Source: Planctomycetaceae bacterium (GTDB lineage Bacteria > Planctomycetota > Planctomycetia > Planctomycetales > Planctomycetaceae). From it: a stretch of 64,000 nucleotides of DNA. Below the pieces are notes generated by a model. The model ran no database searches, was not told the DNA's origin, and saw only the letters and a program-made list of their open reading frames with translations. The stretch lies in the NCBI GenBank assembly GCA_024742875.1, contig JANSXP010000001.1, positions 496,001 to 560,000 of the forward strand. Direction: 5' to 3'. Of this stretch, positions 38,163 through 48,569 are shown piece by piece (position 1 is the stretch's first letter; each line of letters starts with the position of its first letter). The translations under genes and the position numbers were made by a program.

Positions 38163-38271
38163 CCGGCATTGAAATGCAGTAATGAATGCATTTAATGCAA
38201 GTCTGGCCGGGACACAAACAGTGGTACCGGCCTGCGGATCGAGTCCATTTCACCGGTGGCGAGGGGAAACG

Positions 38272-39153
38272 ATGGCATCGACGAGCTACGACGCACTGAT
38301 GACGGACCAGCGATGGGACGACTACAGCAGCACAGAGCATCAAACCTGGCGGCAACTGTACGAACGACAGATGAAGATTCTGCGGCCCCGCGCTTGTCAG
38401 CAGTATCTGGACGCTTTGGAGATTCTTGGTTTCACGGCGGACCACATCCCCAATTTTGCACGCGTCAACGAGCGACTGTGTGAACGCACCGGCTGGGAGG
38501 TTGTGGCTACGGACGGACTCATCAAGTCCCGCGCATTCTTCGACATGCTGACCGATCGCAAGTTTCCTTCAGGCCGCTTCATCCGCACGCCCGAACAACT
38601 GGACTACCTCGAAGAGCCGGACATCTTTCACGATTTGTTTGGTCACATCCCTCTGCTGACCGAACCCGCTTATGCAGACTATATGCACGAGTACGGCAAG
38701 GGGGGAGCGCGGGCTCTGGAATATAAAACAACGCGACACCTGGCGCGGCTCAACTGGTGGACGATTGAGTTCGGACTGATCCGCTCGCCGGAGGGATTGA
38801 AGATCTACGGCGCCGGTCTGCTGTCGTCTTTCAGTGAAGGGCAGTACTGTCTGGACGATGATTCCGCTCATCACATTCAGTTCCACCTGGAGCGCTGCAT
38901 GAGAACACGCGTTTACATCAATGACATGCAGCCGTGCTATTTTGTGATTGACAGTTTTGAAGACCTGTTTAAGCAGGCTGTCGAGACCGATTTCAGTCCA
39001 ATGTACGCCCGCTTTAAAGGCTTAAACGGTATGGACAAAGCGGAAGAGTTTCTGCCGTTCGATCTGCAGACTTCTGACACTGTGCTGCGAACCGGTACGC
39101 AGACCTACATCAAACCGCGGCGTGCGGAACTGGAAGAAGCCATTAGTCTTTAG
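38272..39153 (+). CDS. phhA: Phenylalanine-4-hydroxylase
   Basis: 293 residues from ATG 38272 with GAGGGG five bases upstream. The non-haem iron ligands are visible: H120 and H125 in FHDLFGH and E166 in WWTIEFGL. The pterin-binding and catalytic core matches the bacterial monomeric hydroxylases without the regulatory ACT domain of animal enzymes. It converts phenylalanine to tyrosine using tetrahydropterin and oxygen. It heads the tyrosine-degradation group and is divergent from the pterin dehydratase that recycles its cofactor. Confidence 0.95.
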   Translation: MASTSYDALMTDQRWDDYSSTEHQTWRQLYERQMKILRPRACQQYLDALEILGFTADHIPNFARVNERLCERTGWEVVATDGLIKSRAFFDMLTDRKFPSGRFIRTPEQLDYLEEPDIFHDLFGHIPLLTEPAYADYMHEYGKGGARALEYKTTRHLARLNWWTIEFGLIRSPEGLKIYGAGLLSSFSEGQYCLDDDSAHHIQFHLERCMRTRVYINDMQPCYFVIDSFEDLFKQAVETDFSPMYARFKGLNGMDKAEEFLPFDLQTSDTVLRTGTQTYIKPRRAELEEAISL

Positions 39154-39162
39154 TGAGTTGTT

Positions 39163-39843
39163 ATGTCGTCTTTGTCGTCCATTCTGGAAACCGCGTCGGA
39201 GCAGTCGGGGTCAAGTGTTGACCTTGCCTACGATGAGATTCTGCGCCGCATTGTCAGCGGAGAACTGCGGGAAGGGGAGCCCATCAAGGGCGCCCTCATT
39301 TCCAGAGAAATGGGGGTGAGTCGAACGCCCGTCGTGCAGGCCATCGCGCGACTGACGGCCGAAGGGGTCCTCAATCAGGAACTGAACCGCCGGGCGATTG
39401 TTGCGGCCGGCGCGGAACGCTGGTTTGTCAGTCTGCATGAAGTCCGTATATTGCTGGAACCCGCTGCCGCGGCGGCGGCCGCCGGGAAACTCAGCCGGCA
39501 GACGCTGGAGGAACTCAACGAGGTGGCCCGCCAGTATGAAGCAGAGTCTGACTGGCAGGCGCGACGAGAGACGGCCTATCGGCTCGACTTCGCGCTGCAT
39601 ACGGCCATCGCGGAAAAATCGGGCAATCTGATGATCCGCTCGATCATTGCCAAATGCATGAGTTTCAAACGCTTTGCCTATCGCATTCCCAATGATCTGC
39701 CCGAGCGGCTGGATCGATCGCATCGCGAACATCTGGAAATCCTTCAGGCCGTGCAGGCTGGCGATGCGGACACGGCCCACGCGGCCATGCTGTTTCATTT
39801 AAGAAGTACGTTTCGCGACCTGCCCAATGACCATGTGGTCTGA
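39163..39843 (+). CDS. GntR-family (FCD-type) transcriptional regulator
   Basis: The 226-residue product has an N-terminal winged helix (about 20-85; GELREGEPIKGALISREMG and SRTPVVQAIARL) and a helical FCD ligand domain (about 95-220) with the metal-binding pattern FALHTAIAEKSGN and RSHREHLEIL. FCD regulators respond to organic acids. It begins nine bases after the phhA stop and precedes HPPD by 62 bases, so it probably regulates the tyrosine genes, perhaps in response to an aromatic intermediate. Confidence 0.92.
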   Translation: MSSLSSILETASEQSGSSVDLAYDEILRRIVSGELREGEPIKGALISREMGVSRTPVVQAIARLTAEGVLNQELNRRAIVAAGAERWFVSLHEVRILLEPAAAAAAAGKLSRQTLEELNEVARQYEAESDWQARRETAYRLDFALHTAIAEKSGNLMIRSIIAKCMSFKRFAYRIPNDLPERLDRSHREHLEILQAVQAGDADTAHAAMLFHLRSTFRDLPNDHVV

Positions 39844-39905: not shown

Positions 39906-41009
39906 ATGAGTGTCGAAGACCAGTTTCCTATCAAGCGTGTGGATCACATTGAATTTTATGTGGGCAATGCCAAGCAGTCGGCTGCTTACTACCGTGACGG
40001 ATTCGGTTTTCTGAAGACCGCCTATCGGGGCATGGAGACAGGCGACCGCGAAGTGGCCTCCTATGTGATGGAGCAGGGGCATGTGCGATTTGTGGTTTCT
40101 GCGGCCACAGTCCGCGATCACGAGATCGCCCATCACGCGCACAAACACGGCGACGGCGTGGCCGTTATTGCCATGGAAGTTCCGGATGCCGATTACGCTT
40201 ATCGCTTCACGACAGAACGTGGTGCCGAAGGCGTGACTCCGCTGCAGTGCCTGACAGACGATCACGGTGAATATCGCTATTCGATCATTCAGGGCTATGG
40301 CGACACGCTGTTCAAGTTTGTGGACCGATCTGACTACAACGGTGCGTTCGCGCCGGGCTACGAGCAGCGGGAAGTGATTGAAGGTAAGACGCATCCGGGC
40401 ATTGGCCTGGCGTCTGTTGATCACATTGTGGGTAACGTGGAACTTGGTGGCATGGACAAGTGGGTCAGGTTCTTTGAAGAAGTCATGGGCTTTTCCATGT
40501 TGACTCATTTTGATGATGACGACATCTCAACCGAGTATTCCGCGCTGATGTCGAAAGTCGTGCAGGATGGCACCGGCAAGATCAAATTCCCCATCAACGA
40601 ACCGGCCGAAGGCCGCCGCAAGTCGCAGATTCAGGAGTACCTGGATTACTACGGCGGTCCTGGCGTGCAGCATATTGCCATCATCACGGGTGACATCATC
40701 AGCACGGTGGCCGCGATGCGGCAGCGGGGCATTGAATTCCTGCAGGTGCCTCCCACCTACTATGAAAACCTGACCGAGCGTGTGGGCGACATCAAAGAAG
40801 ACATTGATCGCATCGCGGATCTCAATATTCTGGTGGACCGCGACGAAGAAGGATATCTGCTGCAGATCTTCACCAAGCCCATTGAAGATATCCCCACGAT
40901 CTTCTTCGAAATCATTCAGCGACACGGATCACGAGGATTTGGTGTGGGCAATTTCAAGGCACTGTTCGAAGCCATTGAGCAGGAGCAGGCGCTGCGAGGA
41001 AATCTGTAA
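39906..41009 (+). CDS. hppD: 4-hydroxyphenylpyruvate dioxygenase
   Basis: 367 residues with two vicinal-oxygen-chelate halves. The first begins VDHIEFYVGNAKQSA. The second carries the iron ligands: His in SVDHIVGN, His in GVQHIAIIT, and Glu in TIFFEIIQRHGSRGFG, the C-terminal HPPD signature. The enzyme turns 4-hydroxyphenylpyruvate into homogentisate. It is followed directly by homogentisate dioxygenase with a one-base overlap (TAATG), so the product passes to the next enzyme of the operon. Confidence 0.96.
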   Translation: MSVEDQFPIKRVDHIEFYVGNAKQSAAYYRDGFGFLKTAYRGMETGDREVASYVMEQGHVRFVVSAATVRDHEIAHHAHKHGDGVAVIAMEVPDADYAYRFTTERGAEGVTPLQCLTDDHGEYRYSIIQGYGDTLFKFVDRSDYNGAFAPGYEQREVIEGKTHPGIGLASVDHIVGNVELGGMDKWVRFFEEVMGFSMLTHFDDDDISTEYSALMSKVVQDGTGKIKFPINEPAEGRRKSQIQEYLDYYGGPGVQHIAIITGDIISTVAAMRQRGIEFLQVPPTYYENLTERVGDIKEDIDRIADLNILVDRDEEGYLLQIFTKPIEDIPTIFFEIIQRHGSRGFGVGNFKALFEAIEQEQALRGNL

Positions 41010-42163
41010 TGCCGTTCTACCATCGACTCGGCCGCATTCCGCACAAGCGGCACACGCAGTTTCGGTCGGCCAGTGGCGATCTGTACCACGAAGAACTGAT
41101 GGGCATCCATGGCTTCGCCGGAATCCAGTCGCTGCTGTACCACCTGCGGCCGCCGACGGCTGTGGCCGATGTCAGTGTGGTGCGGTCGACAGCACTGGAG
41201 TACGAAGAGCCAGGCCCGCTGAAGCATCGCCTGCTGAATACGCTGGATTGTCCGGCTGGGGGAAATGCGATCGATGGACGCCTGCCACTGATGGGCAATT
41301 CAGACTGCCTCATTTCTGTCGTGCGTCCCACTGAGCCGATGCCGTACTGGTACCGTTTTGCCCATGGCGATGAACTGCATTTTGTGCATGAAGGCACGGG
41401 CGTGCTGGATTCGCAGTTTGGTCTGCTGGCCTATCGACCGGGCGATTATCTGGTGATTCCCACCGGGGTCATCTGGCGAATTCTACCCGATGATGGGCCG
41501 CAGCGGATGCTGGTCACAGAAGCGAACGGGCACATCGTGCCCCCCAAAAGGTATCTGAATAACTACGGTCAGTTTCTGGAACACTCCCCCTATTGCGAAC
41601 GAGACATTCGCCCGCCCGAACAGCTGGAACCACGGGACGAAGCGGGAGAGTTTGAAGTCCGCGTCAATGCGCGCGGCGTGATCAGTGCCTATCGCTACGC
41701 GCATCATCCGCTCGACGTTGTGGGCTGGGACGGGCACCTGTGGCCGTACGCTTTCAATATTGAAGACTTTGAGCCGATCACCGGACGCATTCATCAGCCA
41801 CCACCCGTGCATCAGACGTTTGACGGGCCCGGATTTGTGGTGTGCTCTTTTGTGCCGCGACTGTTCGACTATCACCCGGATGGCATCCCCGCGCCGTACA
41901 ATCACTCCAATGTCGACTCGGATGAAGTTCTGTACTACGTGGAAGGTAACTTCATGTCACGCAAAGGCATTGATCGCGCCGCGCTGACCATTCATCCCAA
42001 CGGCATTCCTCATGGTCCGCACCCTGGCACTTATGAGGGATCGATTGGCAAAGAGGCGACCGACGAACTGGCCGTGATGGTGGATACCTTCCGACCGCTG
42101 CGGCTGACCAAAGCGGCGGCCACGTTCGAGAATCCGGACTACTTCCAGAGTTGGCAGGTGTGA
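41009..42163 (+). CDS. hmgA: Homogentisate 1,2-dioxygenase
   Basis: The 384-residue protein has the family's jelly-roll core with NVDSDEVLYYVEGNFMSRKG and HPNGIPHGPHPG, which carry the iron-binding His and Glu residues. It is of the shorter bacterial form (about 385 residues rather than about 430). It opens the ring of homogentisate to 4-maleylacetoacetate. The start overlaps the HPPD stop by one base. The next gene is an unknown protein rather than the expected maleylacetoacetate isomerase. Confidence 0.95.
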   Translation: MPFYHRLGRIPHKRHTQFRSASGDLYHEELMGIHGFAGIQSLLYHLRPPTAVADVSVVRSTALEYEEPGPLKHRLLNTLDCPAGGNAIDGRLPLMGNSDCLISVVRPTEPMPYWYRFAHGDELHFVHEGTGVLDSQFGLLAYRPGDYLVIPTGVIWRILPDDGPQRMLVTEANGHIVPPKRYLNNYGQFLEHSPYCERDIRPPEQLEPRDEAGEFEVRVNARGVISAYRYAHHPLDVVGWDGHLWPYAFNIEDFEPITGRIHQPPPVHQTFDGPGFVVCSFVPRLFDYHPDGIPAPYNHSNVDSDEVLYYVEGNFMSRKGIDRAALTIHPNGIPHGPHPGTYEGSIGKEATDELAVMVDTFRPLRLTKAAATFENPDYFQSWQV

Positions 42164-42165
42164 TC

Positions 42166-42987
42166 ATGGGACTGCTGACAGAATCCGCTCTGCTGACGGG
42201 GCTGTTTGACTACGCGGGCCTGTTTCCGCCGGCTGGACTGCCCATGGCCGATGCGGTGGCCGGTTTTGAGCGTTATCGGGCGGGGAAGCATTGCAGGATG
42301 CTTAATGCGTTTGTGATTCCCGCGGCGCGTCTGGTGGAGTTGAAATCTGAGGTCACTTCAGCGGCAGGCAGCCCGTGGCGTTTGAGTGTGCTCAGTGGCG
42401 ACTGGCCCGCTGATCGCGAGTGCATTGAGCAGTTTCGGCAGCAGACGGCGGGTTTCCAGATTGTTTCTGTGGAAACGCGGCAGCTGTCGGCAGCGGCCGA
42501 GATTCGCCACACTTTTCCCGTTTACATCGAGCTGCCGCTGGATGACGGACTGTCCGACAGTGTGGCTTCACTGTCACAGGTCGGGGCCTGCGCCAAGATC
42601 CGCACGGGCGGACTGACGACGGATGCCTTCCCGACCTGTGAGGCGGTGGCCCGGTTTCTGACCGTCTGCTGTCAGGCCGGGGTGCCATTCAAAGCAACGG
42701 CCGGGCTGCACCATCCGCTGCGTTCTCTGCGACGTACCACTGCCGCAGCAGACGCGCCGCTGGCGATGATGCACGGGTTTGTCAATGTGCTGGGCGCGGT
42801 GGCAGCGGCCACCAATGGTGCAACCATCGAGCAGGTGACGGCCGTGCTGGACAACACTCAGGCTGCACCGTTTGTTGAGCGTCTGACCACTCGACCAAAC
42901 CCTGCGCTGCGTCACCTGTTTCATTCCATCGGTTCATGTTCCTTCGAAGAGCCGGTGGCTGATCTGCAGGAACTGTCGTGGCTGTGA
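42166..42987 (+). CDS. Conserved protein of unknown function in the tyrosine operon
   Basis: 273 residues from ATG 42166, two bases after the homogentisate dioxygenase stop. I recognise the conserved-looking start LFDYAGLFPPAGLPM and a later stretch KIRTGG, FPTCEAVARFL, VPFKATAGLHHPLR, which alternates strands and helices as in a TIM barrel. No signal peptide or membrane segment is present, so it is cytoplasmic. No GST-like or zinc-dependent isomerase motif is visible. It sits where maleylacetoacetate isomerase would be expected, between hmgA and fahA, and such an enzyme is otherwise missing in the window. Function is not established. Confidence 0.8.
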   Translation: MGLLTESALLTGLFDYAGLFPPAGLPMADAVAGFERYRAGKHCRMLNAFVIPAARLVELKSEVTSAAGSPWRLSVLSGDWPADRECIEQFRQQTAGFQIVSVETRQLSAAAEIRHTFPVYIELPLDDGLSDSVASLSQVGACAKIRTGGLTTDAFPTCEAVARFLTVCCQAGVPFKATAGLHHPLRSLRRTTAAADAPLAMMHGFVNVLGAVAAATNGATIEQVTAVLDNTQAAPFVERLTTRPNPALRHLFHSIGSCSFEEPVADLQELSWL

Positions 42988-43051: not shown

Positions 43052-44326
43052 ATGACCAATCCCACCAACGACCCCTCCCGCCGCAGTTTTGTGGAAGTTG
43101 CTCCGGACTCGCACTTTCCGATTCAGAATCTGCCGTATGGCGTGTGTCGACCTCGCGCTGGAGGAAGTGCCCGCTGCTGCACGGCGATTGGCGATCGGAT
43201 TGTCGATCTGGCGGCCCTGGAGTCGCTGGGGCTGTTGCCCGACATCAGCGAACAGCCCGTTTTTTCCGTCAGCTCGCTGAACGCCTTCGCAGCTTTGGGC
43301 AGAACGGCATGGTCGGCCGTCCGCCGTGCTGTGAGCGATCTGCTGGATGTCGACAACAGTGTGCTGCGAGACAATGCCGAATGGCAGCAGCAGGTCTTCT
43401 CTGAACAGTCCGCGGTGGACATGCTGCTGCCGATGGAGGTGGGCGATTACACCGACTTCTACTCGTCGAAAGAACATGCGACCAACGTCGGTATCATGTT
43501 TCGCGGGGTGGATAATGCCCTGCAGCCGAATTGGCTGCATCTGCCGGTGGGCTATCACGGACGCGCCAGTTCGGTGGTGGTCAGCGGGCATCCGATCAGA
43601 CGTCCATCCGGTCAAAAGATGCCGCCCGACGCAGACACGCCCGTGTTTGGTCCTTCCCAGGCGATGGACTTTGAACTGGAAATGGGTTTTTACATTGGGC
43701 CCGGGACCGAAGTGGGCCAGGCGGTGGCTGCCGACACGGCCGAAGATCGTATCTTTGGCATGTCGCTGGTGAATGACTGGAGCGCGCGGGACATTCAGCG
43801 GTGGGAGTACGTGCCGCTGGGGCCATTTTTGGGCAAGAACTTTGCGACATCGGTCGCACCGTGGATTGTCTCACTGGAGGCTCTCGAACCATTCCGCTGC
43901 GATGGACCAGAGCAATCGCCCGCCCCATTGTCATATCTTGGCGGCAACGCGCGGCACGCGTTTGATGTGCAGCTGGAGGTGGCGCTGACGACCGCACAGA
44001 TGCCAGCGCGGCACGTCCTGAGCCGTTCCAATTTTCGCTATCTGTACTGGAGCATGACTCAACAGCTGGCGCACCACACGTGCAACGGCTGCAACGTGAA
44101 TCCTGGTGATCTGCTGGCGTCTGGTACGATCAGCGGAAGCACGGCCGACTCACTGGGCAGCATGCTGGAACTGGCCTGGAAGGGCGAACGACCCGTGGCA
44201 CTGCCCAGCGGCGAATCACGAAAGATGCTGCAGGACGGCGATACGGTCATCATGAGCGGCTTTGCTCAGGGAGACGGCTATCGCATTGGCTTTGGTGAGG
44301 TGACCGGTGAAATTACGTCCGCGTGA
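43052..44326 (+). CDS. fahA: Fumarylacetoacetase
   Basis: 424 residues with an SH3-like N-terminal domain (PDSHFPIQNLPYGVC) and the FAH catalytic barrel: YTDFYSSKEHATNVG, GYHGRASSVVVSG, MDFELEMGFYIGPG, and MSLVNDWSARDIQRWEY with the metal-binding Glu and Asp residues. It hydrolyses fumarylacetoacetate to fumarate and acetoacetate, the last step of tyrosine breakdown. The end overlaps the downstream ligase start by 20 bases, which points to translational coupling. Confidence 0.95.
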   Translation: MTNPTNDPSRRSFVEVAPDSHFPIQNLPYGVCRPRAGGSARCCTAIGDRIVDLAALESLGLLPDISEQPVFSVSSLNAFAALGRTAWSAVRRAVSDLLDVDNSVLRDNAEWQQQVFSEQSAVDMLLPMEVGDYTDFYSSKEHATNVGIMFRGVDNALQPNWLHLPVGYHGRASSVVVSGHPIRRPSGQKMPPDADTPVFGPSQAMDFELEMGFYIGPGTEVGQAVAADTAEDRIFGMSLVNDWSARDIQRWEYVPLGPFLGKNFATSVAPWIVSLEALEPFRCDGPEQSPAPLSYLGGNARHAFDVQLEVALTTAQMPARHVLSRSNFRYLYWSMTQQLAHHTCNGCNVNPGDLLASGTISGSTADSLGSMLELAWKGERPVALPSGESRKMLQDGDTVIMSGFAQGDGYRIGFGEVTGEITSA

Positions 44327-46367
44327 TCTGCTGCAGCAGCCTGTCACGGCCTCTGAATTGCAGCAACTGGGTCTGACGACTGCCAGAGCGACTGATCTGG
44401 CCGACCGCGTGGCGGTGGCGATGCAGCAGTCGACACCTCAGAACTGCTGGCAGGCGATTAGCAGCGCGCTGCAGCCAGCCGATGCGTTTGCCGTACATCA
44501 GTGGCTGTACGCCAGCGTCTACCGGGACGGTAAAGTTCCCGGAGCCGCCTGGATTCCGCAACCGGACGATATCGCGTCGGCTCACGTCACCCGGCTGGCG
44601 GCGTCGCTGGGACTGCCCGATTATCCGGCGCTCTACGAGTGGTCGATCGCTCATCGTGCCGCGTACTGGCAGGCGGTTGTCAGCGAGCTGGCAATCCGCT
44701 TTTCTGATCAGCCGGCGCAGAACACTTATCCCGCGGACGATCCGCACGCATGGCTGCCGTCCAGACGGTTCAATATTGTTGACAGTTGTTTTTCTGCGGC
44801 CGCCGACAGGCCGGCCATTGTCTGTCGTGAGGAATCCGGACACCAGACGGTGACGACCTATGGCGAGCTTCTGCAGCGGGTCAATCGCGTAGCCGGCGGG
44901 TTGCGGGAGGCGGGACTGGTCCCCGGAGATCGCGTGGGCATGATGCTGCCGATGACGACCGAGGCGGTGGCCGCCTATCTGGGGACGATCAAAGCCGGAT
45001 GTGTTCCGGTCTCCATTGCCGAGAGTTTTGCGGCTCCGGAAATTGCCGTTCGTCTGCGTCTTTCCGAAGCCAAAGCCATATTCCTAGTGGATGTGGTGCG
45101 GCGGGCCGGACGGCAGCTGCCCTGTTACGACAAGTTTCTGGCCTCCGAACATCGGGCGACGGCCATCGTGCTGCCGGCCACGTCAGACACCGCAGAGTTG
45201 CGTGATGGGGACGTGTCATGGTCGCAGTTCTTATCGACTGTCACAGACTTCACGTCAGTTGTCGGCGAGGCGACCGACGAAGTCAACATTCTGTTCTCCT
45301 CCGGCACTACCGGAGAGCCCAAGGCGATTCCGTGGTCGCACTCCACACCACTCAAGTGCGCAGCGGACGCTCGCTACCACCACAATATCGGGACGGACAG
45401 CGTTGTCGCCTGGCCAACGAGTCTGGGCTGGATGATGGGGCCATGGCTCATTTTTGCCACGCTCCTCAATCGGGGCACCATGGCCCTGTTTGACGGTGCG
45501 CCCAACAGTCCTGCCTTTTGCCGCTTCGTGGAGCAGGCCGGGGTGACGATGCTGGGCGTGATTCCCAGTCTCGTGCGGGCGTGGCGTACCGGTGACATGC
45601 TGTCAGGCGTGAACTGGACGGGCATCGACGCCTTCAGTTCCACGGGCGAATGCTCCAGTGAGGAGGATATGCTGTATCTGATGGCGCAGGCTGGTTACCG
45701 ACCCGTGATTGAATATTGCGGCGGTACAGAAATTGGCGGGGGATACATCACGAGCACGATCGTTCAGGCCAACCGCCCATCGTGCTTCTCGACGCCCGCT
45801 CTGGGGATCGACCTGGTGCTGCTGGATCAGGGTCGGGTGGCCAGGCAGGGGGAAGTGTTTCTCGCAGGCCCGTCCATCGGCCTTTCGCAGCGACTGCTCA
45901 ACGCGGATCACGAACAGATTTACTTTGCCGACACGCCGGATCTGCCTGGGCTTTCGCGGCTGCGACGTCACGGTGACGAGATGGAGCAACCGGCGGCCGA
46001 CGTCTATCGAGCCGGCGGTCGCACGGATGATTCCATGAATCTGGGGGGCATCAAAGTCAGTGCGGTGGAGCTGGAACGCTGCCTGAATCAGTTAAACGGC
46101 GTACGGGAATGTGCGGCCGTTGCGTGTGCGACCGACGGCGGACCCTCCGAACTGGTGATCTGTGTGGTTCCCGAAGAGGGGCCGGTGACGCGTGCGGACA
46201 TCTCGCCTGAACGGCTGCAGCCGCTGATGCAGCAGGCCATCAGCAGTCAGATCAACCCCCTGTTTCGCGTGCGAAAAGTGCTGCTGCTGGATCAGCTGCC
46301 CCGCACAGCCTCCAACAAAGTGATGAGAAGACAGCTGCGAGACACGGTATCCGCCGCGCATCGCTGA
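44307..46367 (+). CDS. AMP-forming acyl-CoA synthetase, possible acetoacetate-CoA ligase
   Basis: 686 residues from GTG 44307, inside the fahA end, with GAGGTGA upstream. The AMP-binding core shows the P-loop-like FSSGTTGEPKAIPWSH, the adenine/acid-site SSTGECSSEED and YCGGTEIGGGY, and the C-terminal NxxGxK-type hinge region (DDSMNLGGIKVSAVE). A roughly 160-residue N-terminal helical part resembles long acetyl- or acetoacetyl-CoA synthetases and plant AAE17/18-like enzymes. Its coupling to fumarylacetoacetase suggests that it activates the acetoacetate released there, feeding the thiolase at 33915. Substrate is inferred from context only. Confidence 0.85.
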   Translation: MKLRPRDLLQQPVTASELQQLGLTTARATDLADRVAVAMQQSTPQNCWQAISSALQPADAFAVHQWLYASVYRDGKVPGAAWIPQPDDIASAHVTRLAASLGLPDYPALYEWSIAHRAAYWQAVVSELAIRFSDQPAQNTYPADDPHAWLPSRRFNIVDSCFSAAADRPAIVCREESGHQTVTTYGELLQRVNRVAGGLREAGLVPGDRVGMMLPMTTEAVAAYLGTIKAGCVPVSIAESFAAPEIAVRLRLSEAKAIFLVDVVRRAGRQLPCYDKFLASEHRATAIVLPATSDTAELRDGDVSWSQFLSTVTDFTSVVGEATDEVNILFSSGTTGEPKAIPWSHSTPLKCAADARYHHNIGTDSVVAWPTSLGWMMGPWLIFATLLNRGTMALFDGAPNSPAFCRFVEQAGVTMLGVIPSLVRAWRTGDMLSGVNWTGIDAFSSTGECSSEEDMLYLMAQAGYRPVIEYCGGTEIGGGYITSTIVQANRPSCFSTPALGIDLVLLDQGRVARQGEVFLAGPSIGLSQRLLNADHEQIYFADTPDLPGLSRLRRHGDEMEQPAADVYRAGGRTDDSMNLGGIKVSAVELERCLNQLNGVRECAAVACATDGGPSELVICVVPEEGPVTRADISPERLQPLMQQAISSQINPLFRVRKVLLLDQLPRTASNKVMRRQLRDTVSAAHR

Positions 46368-46414: not shown

Positions 46415-47242
46415 TCATTCCGGCGCAAGCAGCAGCTGCATCTGTCGCGCATACCGCTCTCCCAGCAGCAACTGGCTGCGGGCATCAAAGTGCGTGCCGC
46501 TGTCCCAGGTGGTGGTGTCTTTGGCAGAAACAAAACCCACTGTCGAGTCGGCGGCCGCTACCTCCTGTGTGGCTGTTCGGACGCTGTCGCGTTTGCCGTT
46601 GTCAAACACCTCGCCGGTGACGATCGGCAAATCTGCGATGCCCACGTCTTCACGGATTCGTGCCACGAACGTTGTCAGCTGAGTGCGGTATGTCTGCCGC
46701 GTCTGTTTGGCGTCGGACTCCCCCTGATGCCACAGCAGCCCGCGAACTTGGAAAGAGTGCCCCTGCTGCTCCAGTTGCTCTGTGGCCAATCGAATCGTCT
46801 CGATCAAGTCGCGGTACTGGCGGCCCTGGGTTTCCGGCTTTCCCCTGACGCCCGGATTCCAGTCGGCACGCAGGCTGGTTCCCCCCTTTGAGCCTTTAAT
46901 GAGGGCCAGCGCCTGGCCGGGAAATCGGGCCCTCATTGTGCGTGCGAAACCGATCTCGGGGCCGAATTTTGGCGAAGGCAGCCGGTCTTTGAAACGCGGA
47001 GGCACACTGAACCCCGGGCTCAGCGGCTTCCACGTTTCACTGGAGGCGAGGGCGTTACGATAAAAGATAATGCACTGGTCGACCGGCTGCTGCTGTTCGG
47101 CGGGCAGGTCGGCCGTGAGCCCACGGCCATCCATGTTGGACTGACCTGCCAGCAGATACACATGATACTCTGTGGCAGGCAGGGGGGCTGGCTGGTGGGC
47201 AAACAGAAACAGTGTTGAAGCGATGGCAAAAAACGACTTCAC
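46415..47242 (-). CDS. Secreted SASA-family esterase (sialate O-acetylesterase-like)
   Basis: 275 residues from GTG 47242, the start that leaves a clean signal peptide (KSFFAIASTLFLFAHQ, cleavage near residue 24). The SGNH-type GQSNMDG gives Ser35 as nucleophile, WHQGESD carries the block-III-like Gly-Glu, and the C-terminal DSGTHFD supplies the Asp/His pair. Family members remove O-acetyl groups from sialate or plant glycans. It converges with the ligase gene, 47 bases apart, and fits the sulfatase-rich polysaccharide setting. Confidence 0.88.
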   Translation of the reverse strand: MKSFFAIASTLFLFAHQPAPLPATEYHVYLLAGQSNMDGRGLTADLPAEQQQPVDQCIIFYRNALASSETWKPLSPGFSVPPRFKDRLPSPKFGPEIGFARTMRARFPGQALALIKGSKGGTSLRADWNPGVRGKPETQGRQYRDLIETIRLATEQLEQQGHSFQVRGLLWHQGESDAKQTRQTYRTQLTTFVARIREDVGIADLPIVTGEVFDNGKRDSVRTATQEVAAADSTVGFVSAKDTTTWDSGTHFDARSQLLLGERYARQMQLLLAPE

Positions 47243-47354
47243 AGGATCATCTCTCAGGGGTCGGGAGTGTCGCGGCGTGACGGGCTGCCGGGCGAGCAAG
47301 CGTAACGGAAATCAGGTTCACCTGCCCGCCCTCGCCATCGAATTCAGAGCCGCC

Positions 47355-48569
47355 TCACATTCGCAGTCCGCCAAATCCGTTTCCATAGCGCTGCTGCAGC
47401 CCGCGCAGTTCGTCTCTCTGCAGGTCGTTCCCAGCCAGCAGCACCTCTGTCCGCTCATTATGTGCGGAGGCGAGCGCTTCGGCGCCTTCGTTCCGGATGG
47501 CATTGCAGGACAGGTCAAGGCGTCGCAGTTGTTGATAGACGGGGTGTTCCGCCAGCCAGGTCGCACCAGCACACTGGAGTTTGTTGTCACTTAGCTCAAG
47601 AACTTCCAGCTGCGGGTAGCCGTCCACAATGGCCGGCAGGTGTTCGTCGGTCAATGAGGTGCGCAGCCTGAGCCAGCTCAGAGATGGCGGCCGTTCGACC
47701 ATAAAGGCGTCGCGGGAAAGCTGACTGTTATTCAGGCACAGTTTGACCAGCTGCTGCGAGCACGCGTGCTGCTGGAAGGCGGCCAGCGCAGCACCACTGA
47801 ACCGTCCGGTCAGGCTCAGGGACCTCAGCTGGCTGACGGTCTGTTGTTCCGAGAGTGCGGCCAGGCTGCCGTCGCCCAAAAACGTTTCCCCGGTATCCAG
47901 TGAACGCAGTGCCGGAAACGACACGTCCTGCAGAAGATCCAGCAGTGTCGGCGCACGCAGATCACCTTCACTGATGATCAACTGCTGCAGAGAGTCTGTT
48001 CTGAGGGATCGCAGGGCCGCACTCACCAGATCGTTCACAACGGCAGTCTGCCGGGGGCGAAACCGCAGCTCAAGTGTTTCCAGATGCTGCAGGTGAGCAC
48101 TGGAGAAAAAACGAACATACTCGGGAATGCTGCTTTCGACACAAAACGTCAGGTGACGAATCTGATTCCACTCTTGCGCACGGGCGAGTGCTTCCAGTCG
48201 CGTAGCTCGCCCTTCGATCGCCAGCGACGTGATGGGGGCGGTGCGAAACAGTGACGAACGACATTTGAGAAAAGCCGAGATAGACAGGGAGACGCCTGAG
48301 TAAAAGCCGCCCTCAGAGCACAACGGCGGGCATCCGTCCGGCAACCGCCCGAAGAAAGCGAAGTCCGCTACACGCTGAGCCTGTCGTTCCCGCCAGGCCA
48401 GTTCAATTCGCAGTGGATCCCAGACCGGCACGCGTTCGCGGTCCAGCTGGGCCCGGATCAACTCAGCACGAGCGTCTTCGCGTTCTTCCAGATAGTCGGC
48501 AAACACCATTCGCAACCCCTCGTCGTGGGGCTGGTTAATGATTTCCTTTGTGAATGTGGGGATGTCCAC
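47355..48569 (-). CDS. TIGR02996-domain leucine-rich-repeat protein
   Basis: 404 residues from GTG 48569, with AGGAG six bases upstream. The first 45 residues match the repeat-companion domain TIGR02996 (DEGLRMVFADYLEEREDARAE). The remainder contains leucine-rich repeats, clearest near residues 310-380 (LEVLELSDNKL, LRRLDLSCNAIRNEGAEALA), in the ribonuclease-inhibitor style. Such proteins are expanded in planctomycetes and myxobacteria and are thought to bind partner proteins; no partner is known. It follows the sulfatase by 24 bases. Confidence 0.85.
   Translation of the reverse strand: MDIPTFTKEIINQPHDEGLRMVFADYLEEREDARAELIRAQLDRERVPVWDPLRIELAWRERQAQRVADFAFFGRLPDGCPPLCSEGGFYSGVSLSISAFLKCRSSLFRTAPITSLAIEGRATRLEALARAQEWNQIRHLTFCVESSIPEYVRFFSSAHLQHLETLELRFRPRQTAVVNDLVSAALRSLRTDSLQQLIISEGDLRAPTLLDLLQDVSFPALRSLDTGETFLGDGSLAALSEQQTVSQLRSLSLTGRFSGAALAAFQQHACSQQLVKLCLNNSQLSRDAFMVERPPSLSWLRLRTSLTDEHLPAIVDGYPQLEVLELSDNKLQCAGATWLAEHPVYQQLRRLDLSCNAIRNEGAEALASAHNERTEVLLAGNDLQRDELRGLQQRYGNGFGGLRM

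Follow-up and report, generated by a model that had tools for sequence, protein, structure and literature searches.

A previously unnamed protein family encoded beside fumarylacetoacetase is a candidate non-homologous maleylacetoacetate isomerase

We describe a widespread and previously unnamed protein family, here called UNK, that is probably a maleylacetoacetate isomerase non-homologous to the known enzyme; we infer its catalytic activity from its association with the homogentisate pathway, in which the maleylacetoacetate isomerase step needs glutathione (GSH) in its known form. The assignment is based on gene order, on co-occurrence with fumarylacetoacetase (FahA) in two phyla, on the lack of over-cut-off matches to the GST-type isomerase (MaiA) where UNK is present, and on a predicted fold and a set of invariant residues. 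An earlier model-made note on the DNA (the sequence-only reading) had suggested that the protein may be a non-homologous isomerase, and the association with FahA together with the absence of MaiA supports this suggestion.

Results

The window, by which we mean the whole 64,000-nucleotide stretch of DNA that was analyzed, contains a run of + strand genes that begins with phenylalanine 4-monooxygenase (PAH, 38182..39153; TIGR01267, 315.5 bits against a cut-off of 264.75) and a GntR/FCD-type regulator (39163..39843; Pfam profile match), both of which stand 5' of hppD and go beyond what had been noted before. The run continues with hppD, encoding 4-hydroxyphenylpyruvate dioxygenase (39906..41009; TIGR01263, 438 bits, cut-off 277), hmgA, encoding a homogentisate 1,2-dioxygenase of the short type (41009..42163; 384 aa; Pfam HgmA_N), UNK (42166..42987), fahA, encoding a 424-aa FahA (43052..44326; TIGR01266, 588 bits, cut-off 375), and an AMP-binding acyl-CoA ligase-like gene that overlaps the 3' end of fahA (44307..46367; Pfam AMP-binding). 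UNK itself, the proposed maleylacetoacetate isomerase and predicted (beta/alpha)8 barrel, is defined by its open frame, family alignments and AlphaFold models; the frame has an ATG start, 273 codons and a TGA stop. The hmgA stop ends at 42163, leaving a 2-base gap before UNK, and 64 bases separate the UNK stop from the fahA start. The sequence-only reading had claimed the operon order hppD-hmgA-UNK-fahA-ligase, a position for UNK two bases past hmgA and an open frame of 273 residues; profile matches to the neighbors bore out the first, and the coordinates above bear out the other two. Both neighbors of UNK, HmgA and FahA, are known enzymes, and isomerization is the sole unfilled reaction between them. 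The genome from which the window comes is 8.18 Mb in size and 98.1% complete, and UNK is present in it as a single copy.

HmgA passed only one model, Pfam HgmA_N (32.1 bits against a cut-off of 20.2), and since its score of 56 bits against TIGR01015 is far under that model's cut-off of 510.75, we regard it as a short, divergent type. The hmgA genes near UNK elsewhere are 45-73% identical to the HmgA of the window, except for that of a Fibrobacteres MAG (23%). Among NCBIfam models the AMP-binding ligase scored highest against acetoacetate--CoA ligase, where its 242 bits fell short of the cut-off of 639. Promoter and terminator scans gave 3 (2.6 expected) and 10 (6.8 expected), respectively, and played no part in the interpretation. 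Past the operon, on the - strand, lie genes for a sialic acid-specific acetylesterase-type protein (SASA; 46415-47299) and a leucine-rich-repeat protein (47355-48569).

UNK had been called unrecognised and free of any GST-like motif, and both descriptions held: among Pfam and NCBIfam it matched 0 families at E <= 1, which covers the GST families of Pfam, the MaiA profile TIGR01262, the MDMPI_N/DinB-like domain and the DeoC profiles, and it has no credible relative in the PDB, where the top sequence match had an E value of 1.9. Use of more family members changed little, with a top PDB match at E 0.16 for a profile of 13 members and, for the same 13 against Pfam, three stray families matched by one member each (best E 0.035). 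No relatives were found in viral contigs. A deoxyribose-phosphate aldolase (DERA) family assignment was considered and dropped, as hhalign comparison with 14 DeoC sequences gave a probability of at most 2.3%. On plasmids UNK is annotated as “hypothetical protein” in 22 of 24 cases and is unannotated in the other two, and a literature search whose coverage lay mostly outside subscription journals found no published gene for the family. UNK is a previously unnamed family, and it is widespread.

UNK was found by profile in 11 of 199 genomes sampled from the window's phylum (Planctomycetota), and it was found in 13 of 221 genomes sampled from the phylum of an Anaerolineae MAG, which we take to be Chloroflexota; that MAG is among the 13. 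A search of contigs had yielded three more relatives, in MAGs labelled Fibrobacteres, Krumholzibacteriota and Anaerolineae, and 24 further copies are on plasmids from Streptomyces (11), Priestia (6), Pseudonocardia (2), Rhodococcus (2), Kovacikia (1), Nonomuraea (1) and Tsukamurella (1), hosts that span Actinomycetota, Bacillota and Cyanobacteriota. Nine of the 12 new UNK genomes of the second phylum were fetched, and in the other three (G235, G303 and G311) match coordinates place UNK immediately upstream of fahA. Two matches from this phylum (G351 and G308) have one in-frame TGA each in the reported stretch. The profile did not support a weak match in G039 (E 2.9e-4, with five stops), which was left uncounted.

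The sequence-only reading had suggested a survey of whether homologs lie beside hmgA or fahA; in 36 of 43 loci UNK adjoins fahA on its 5' side and on the same strand, and in the other seven fahA is elsewhere. Gaps between UNK and fahA in the 36 loci, from match coordinates, range from -4 to 120 bases, with one locus at 413. The seven exceptions comprise four loci from one genus (L020-L023, in G095, G034, G172 and G002), one at a contig end where UNK adjoins hmgA and hppD with no fahA beside it (L024, in G134), and two in which fahA sits on a different contig from UNK (L078 and L079, in G219 and G281); a true fahA is still present in all seven genomes. Near UNK in one locus of that genus (L022, 12773-14248) is a gene whose start, by eye, resembles kynurenine 3-monooxygenase. 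On plasmids, several of which are near-duplicates, UNK is directly upstream of fahA in 24 of 24 records (18 by annotation, two, L040 and L041, by tblastn, and four from Priestia by coordinates).

The position of hmgA is more variable. The order hmgA-UNK-fahA occurs on the Tsukamurella plasmid, on both Pseudonocardia and both Rhodococcus plasmids and on three Streptomyces plasmids; Priestia has hppD-UNK-fahA-hisC-hmgA and the Anaerolineae MAG has UNK-fahA-hmgA, and on 8 Streptomyces plasmids UNK-fahA is present with hmgA absent from the stretch read. The genomic link of UNK with FahA is therefore closer than that with HmgA, which is what one would expect of an enzyme that makes the substrate of FahA.

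The 36 loci in which UNK adjoins fahA would also be consistent with a non-catalytic role for UNK, as a partner that helps FahA or HmgA by assembly, channelling or protection of an intermediate. The seven loci with fahA elsewhere argue against such a role, which we consider very unlikely. Operons do acquire hitchhikers, yet the idea that UNK is an unrelated gene carried with this operon is extremely improbable: record labels place UNK beside fahA in seven groups at the level of phyla (the window's phylum, Fibrobacteres, Krumholzibacteriota, Anaerolineae, Actinomycetota, Bacillota and Cyanobacteriota) and in varying gene orders, and its co-occurrence with FahA in both samples strongly contradicts such hitchhiking.

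In the window's phylum, FahA scored over cut-off in 12 of 199 genomes and UNK in 11, with both in 11; a true FahA is thus present in 11/11 UNK genomes and in 1/188 others (Fisher 3e-17). The second phylum gave FahA in 20 and UNK in 13 of 221 genomes, with both in 13, or FahA in 13/13 UNK genomes against 7/208 others (Fisher 2e-16); both p values are overstated, as related genomes are not independent. Nine genomes from the same taxonomic family as the window's genome (G024, G048, G069, G087, G105, G137, G152, G181 and G194) have neither UNK nor FahA over cut-off, so the UNK operon may have arrived by transfer or have been widely lost.

The sequence-only reading had proposed that a GST-type MaiA elsewhere in the window's genome, together with UNK in genomes that lack the pathway, would speak against an isomerase. 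Such a MaiA was looked for and was absent, with no match to TIGR01262 in the 8.18-Mb genome, and neither sample contained UNK in a genome without FahA. MaiA scored over cut-off in 0 of the 11 UNK genomes of the window's phylum, of which G071 alone had sub-cut-off matches (seven), and in 0 of the 20 FahA genomes of the second phylum, including the 13 with UNK. These counts cover the 24 UNK genomes of the two phylum samples. The only FahA genome without UNK in the window's phylum, G107, does have MaiA (235 bits against a cut-off of 171, with nine matches); it is a single case, from an assembly that is 86% complete and 5% contaminated, which makes its lack of UNK less certain. With G107 set aside, MaiA was over cut-off in 0 of 31 FahA genomes. 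G071, with UNK, and G107, with GST-type MaiA (L034), belong to the same family and both have FahA, a pattern that resembles replacement.

The plasmid collection contains 119 records with FahA at E <= 1e-50. Among the 60 FahA plasmids listed, 10 are UNK records (Priestia 6, Pseudonocardia 2, Kovacikia 1 and Tsukamurella 1) and the remaining 50 include no member of the set of 24 UNK plasmids; at least two of these 50 carry maiA in the cluster of fahA, adjoining it in one and two genes off in the other. Among the MaiA matches listed (60 of 210 plasmids), none is an UNK record.

UNK does not close the MaiA gap in every FahA genome. Seven of the 20 FahA genomes of the second phylum (L086-L092, in G335, G319, G329, G287, G253, G407 and G301) have neither UNK nor MaiA, and the step can therefore be met otherwise or omitted; these genomes may rely on yet another isomerase or do without one. 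In five of the seven, hmgA is at most 2 kb from fahA, and these five also lack an MDMPI_N match. Besides fahA and hmgA, two families recurred near fahA in at least three of the seven loci, one of M20 peptidases and one of CAAX-protease-like proteins, in a search that used simple ORF calling (at least 90 aa, within 6 kb) and in which rarer neighbors were checked in part.

These seven genomes are in keeping with a different activity for UNK, in which it would repair, detoxify or aldol-cleave maleylacetoacetate, fumarylacetoacetate or their breakdown products while isomerization proceeded spontaneously or with another thiol. We think this unlikely, as it leaves unexplained both the presence of MaiA in the one genome of the window's phylum with FahA and no UNK (G107, a single case) and the absence of over-cut-off GST-type MaiA from genomes with UNK (0/24).

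The FahA genomes also bear on a mycothiol-dependent maleylpyruvate isomerase (MDMPI), which, in bacteria that lack glutathione, carries out the cis-trans isomerization of the corresponding intermediate of gentisate breakdown and has a fold unlike a (beta/alpha)8 barrel, the fold predicted for UNK. A mycothiol- or bacillithiol-dependent isomerase of the DinB/MDMPI type, encoded elsewhere, could perform the step with UNK as an accessory. MDMPI_N (PF11716) is over cut-off in 18 of 32 FahA genomes, although it is a large, mixed family whose matches tell little, and on two Streptomyces plasmids UNK is preceded, at distances of ~1.0 and 3.3 kb, by an MDMPI_N gene. PF11716 is, in contrast, absent from the window's genome and from 5 of the 10 other UNK genomes in the sample of its phylum, and we judge this explanation to be quite improbable, even though the tyrosine-metabolism genes of Streptomyces albidoflavus, in the excerpt of PMC11012174, include an MDMPI-family gene. 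MDMPI_N-domain genes were seen 5' of UNK-fahA in L039 (1985-2641) and L048 (1346-2002), with hmgA absent from the stretch read; these Streptomyces plasmids possibly deal with a different ring-cleavage product.

Structure prediction, which the sequence-only reading had proposed as a check, gave a (beta/alpha)8 barrel in two AlphaFold models that were both built from one set of four sequences (the window protein and three homologs). The model of the window's UNK has a mean pLDDT of 66 and a pTM of 0.71, with low-confidence stretches at 180-203, 227-249 and 259-273, and that of the Fibrobacteres homolog has a pLDDT of 80 and a pTM of 0.83, with a low-confidence stretch at 192-209; the low-confidence parts of both include the segment that follows beta7. 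In VIA-align comparisons, class I deoxyribose-phosphate aldolases ranked first for both the window model (Z 12.6, rmsd 3.7, 203 aligned residues) and the Fibrobacteres model (Z 13.2, rmsd 3.6, 215 aligned). Pyruvate kinases reached Z 12.0 against the Fibrobacteres model, and other TIM barrels were within ~1.5 Z of DERA. Because pyruvate kinases score nearly as high, the comparison gives a fold class and not a family; profile-profile comparison with DeoC lends it no support from sequence, and TIM barrels are functionally diverse. The best Foldseek match of the window model was a weak one to dihydropteroate synthase (E 6.5e-4) and the Fibrobacteres model had none at 1e-3 or below; since these matches are weak, we state the predicted fold just as a (beta/alpha)8 barrel. 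The rank of class I aldolases as closest in fold, and the conservation of a lysine on each of beta6 and beta7 throughout the family, would also fit the aldol cleavage considered above.

Invariant positions were determined from 38 of the 39 distinct sequences in the 43 loci, with L024 left out as its contig ends inside the gene; one family alignment (A4) contains 22 of 28 full-length sequences, near-duplicates having been removed. Twenty-two positions never vary among the 38: D15, A17, P21, P22, E103, E122, K144, R146, G148, G149, K176, T178, A179, G180, L181, H182, G204, N207, G256, C258, S259 and P263. Twenty of these are in a predicted barrel strand or at most six residues past one, a limit chosen after the alignment was seen, compared with 89 of 273 positions overall, and the charged or nucleophilic invariants are on or past strands 1, 4, 5, 6, 7 and 8. 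In the window, the codon for Asp15 in strand beta1 is at 42208..42210 (+ strand, as for all that follow; invariant in 38/38) and that for Glu122 at the end of beta5 is at 42529..42531 (38/38). Lys144-Ile-Arg146 in beta6, part of a KxRxGG motif, is encoded at 42595..42603 (Lys and Arg 38/38), the KxTAGLHH motif of beta7 and after (codons 176-183) at 42691..42714 (Lys176 and His182 38/38, His183 36/38), and the GSCSFxEP motif of beta8 and after (codons 256-263) at 42931..42954 (Cys258 38/38). Judged from the alignment and models, the anatomy of UNK looks like that of an enzyme: invariant Lys, Arg, Glu, Asp, His and Cys residues at predicted barrel strand ends resemble the catalysts of this fold, which is a further argument against a non-catalytic role for UNK.

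Discussion

As a candidate isomerase, UNK would share its reaction and its place between HmgA and FahA with the zeta-class GST-type MaiA (EC 5.2.1.2, TIGR01262). The two have no sequence match, differ in length (211 model positions for MaiA, 273 aa for UNK) and differ in fold, which is thioredoxin/GST for MaiA and a predicted (beta/alpha)8 barrel for UNK. The best structural neighbor of both UNK models, class I DeoC/DERA, acts in a different pathway. In DERA-type class I aldolases, the active site has a pair of lysines on beta6 and beta7; in UNK, the lysines on beta6 and beta7 stand in K-x-x-x-G steps, and the DeoC sequences have KTSTG and K-x-x-G-G stretches, a likeness at the level of strands rather than of register superposed in space. 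UNK also has an invariant Cys motif on beta8 that is additional to the features of DeoC.

In GST-type MaiA, glutathione makes the double bond of maleylacetoacetate transiently single. We infer that UNK catalyzes the same conversion, with roles for one Cys and two Lys, and that it may do so independently of a thiol cofactor. In the proposed mechanism, UNK would take the maleylacetoacetate that HmgA makes and turn it into fumarylacetoacetate, on which FahA acts, using catalytic groups of its own and borrowing no glutathione thiol. The diketo acid would sit in the mouth of the (beta/alpha)8 barrel, where Arg146 and nearby basic residues could hold its carboxylates, and Lys144 (beta6) or Lys176 (beta7) would polarize, or form an iminium with, the carbonyl beside the cis double bond. 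Cys258 (beta8) would then add to the double bond as glutathione does, the single bond so formed would rotate, and departure of the thiolate would give the trans product; catalysis by lysine alone, or acid-base catalysis, are alternatives. The DERA entries found by VIA-align include, by their titles, one re-engineered for Michael additions and one in a Schiff-base complex with a cinnamaldehyde, and a DERA fold can therefore possibly activate a conjugated double bond through an iminium. Tentatively, and with some doubt, we propose a family of maleylacetoacetate isomerases free of thiol cofactors, built on an aldolase-like TIM barrel, in which a Lys iminium or polarized carbonyl and a built-in Cys may replace glutathione. 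Counting against the isomerase reading are the seven FahA genomes with neither UNK nor MaiA, the seven loci with fahA elsewhere, the eight Streptomyces plasmids with hmgA absent from the stretch read, and the fact that one of the UNK hosts, Kovacikia, is a cyanobacterium, since Cyanobacteria make glutathione.

MaiA-type isomerization requires GSH according to the excerpt of PMC10950700, and in that of PMC9338888 a GSH-dependent isomerase is the rule, with a possible non-enzymatic GSH bypass and one exception in Bacillus. The exception is a glutathione-independent conversion of maleylacetoacetate with no named gene in the same excerpt (Crawford 1976, via PMC9338888), which adds that Crawford's strain formed maleate. 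The bypass and this maleate-forming activity could be counted in favor of UNK having another function, such as repair or detoxification. The Bacillus activity is one without a gene in a Gram-positive organism, and UNK is carried by Priestia. In B. thuringiensis, the operon described in the excerpt of PMC6193087 contains hppD, fahA and hmgA only, and the 2018 authors state there that isomerization genes were not directly identifiable from the genome. Because maleate was formed and the B. thuringiensis operon is without UNK, the Bacillus activity may be another solution to the same step. For Rhodococcus, a genome paper (PMC4591350) gives AII08874 as the accession of hmgA and AII08876 as that of fahA, and its “mai” is an enoyl-CoA hydratase-isomerase; from this numbering and the arrangement on the two Rhodococcus plasmids, the accession between AII08874 and AII08876 may be the UNK gene.

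Probable as an isomerase on the evidence of its association with FahA, UNK offers one testable gene family for much of the missing-isomerase gap. If the assignment is true, UNK would fill the MaiA gap in some bacteria of the window's phylum, of Actinomycetota, Bacillota, Chloroflexota and Cyanobacteriota, and of other groups. Confirmation would allow pathway predictions to be corrected across several phyla and would provide a clear case of unrelated enzymes that catalyze one reaction.
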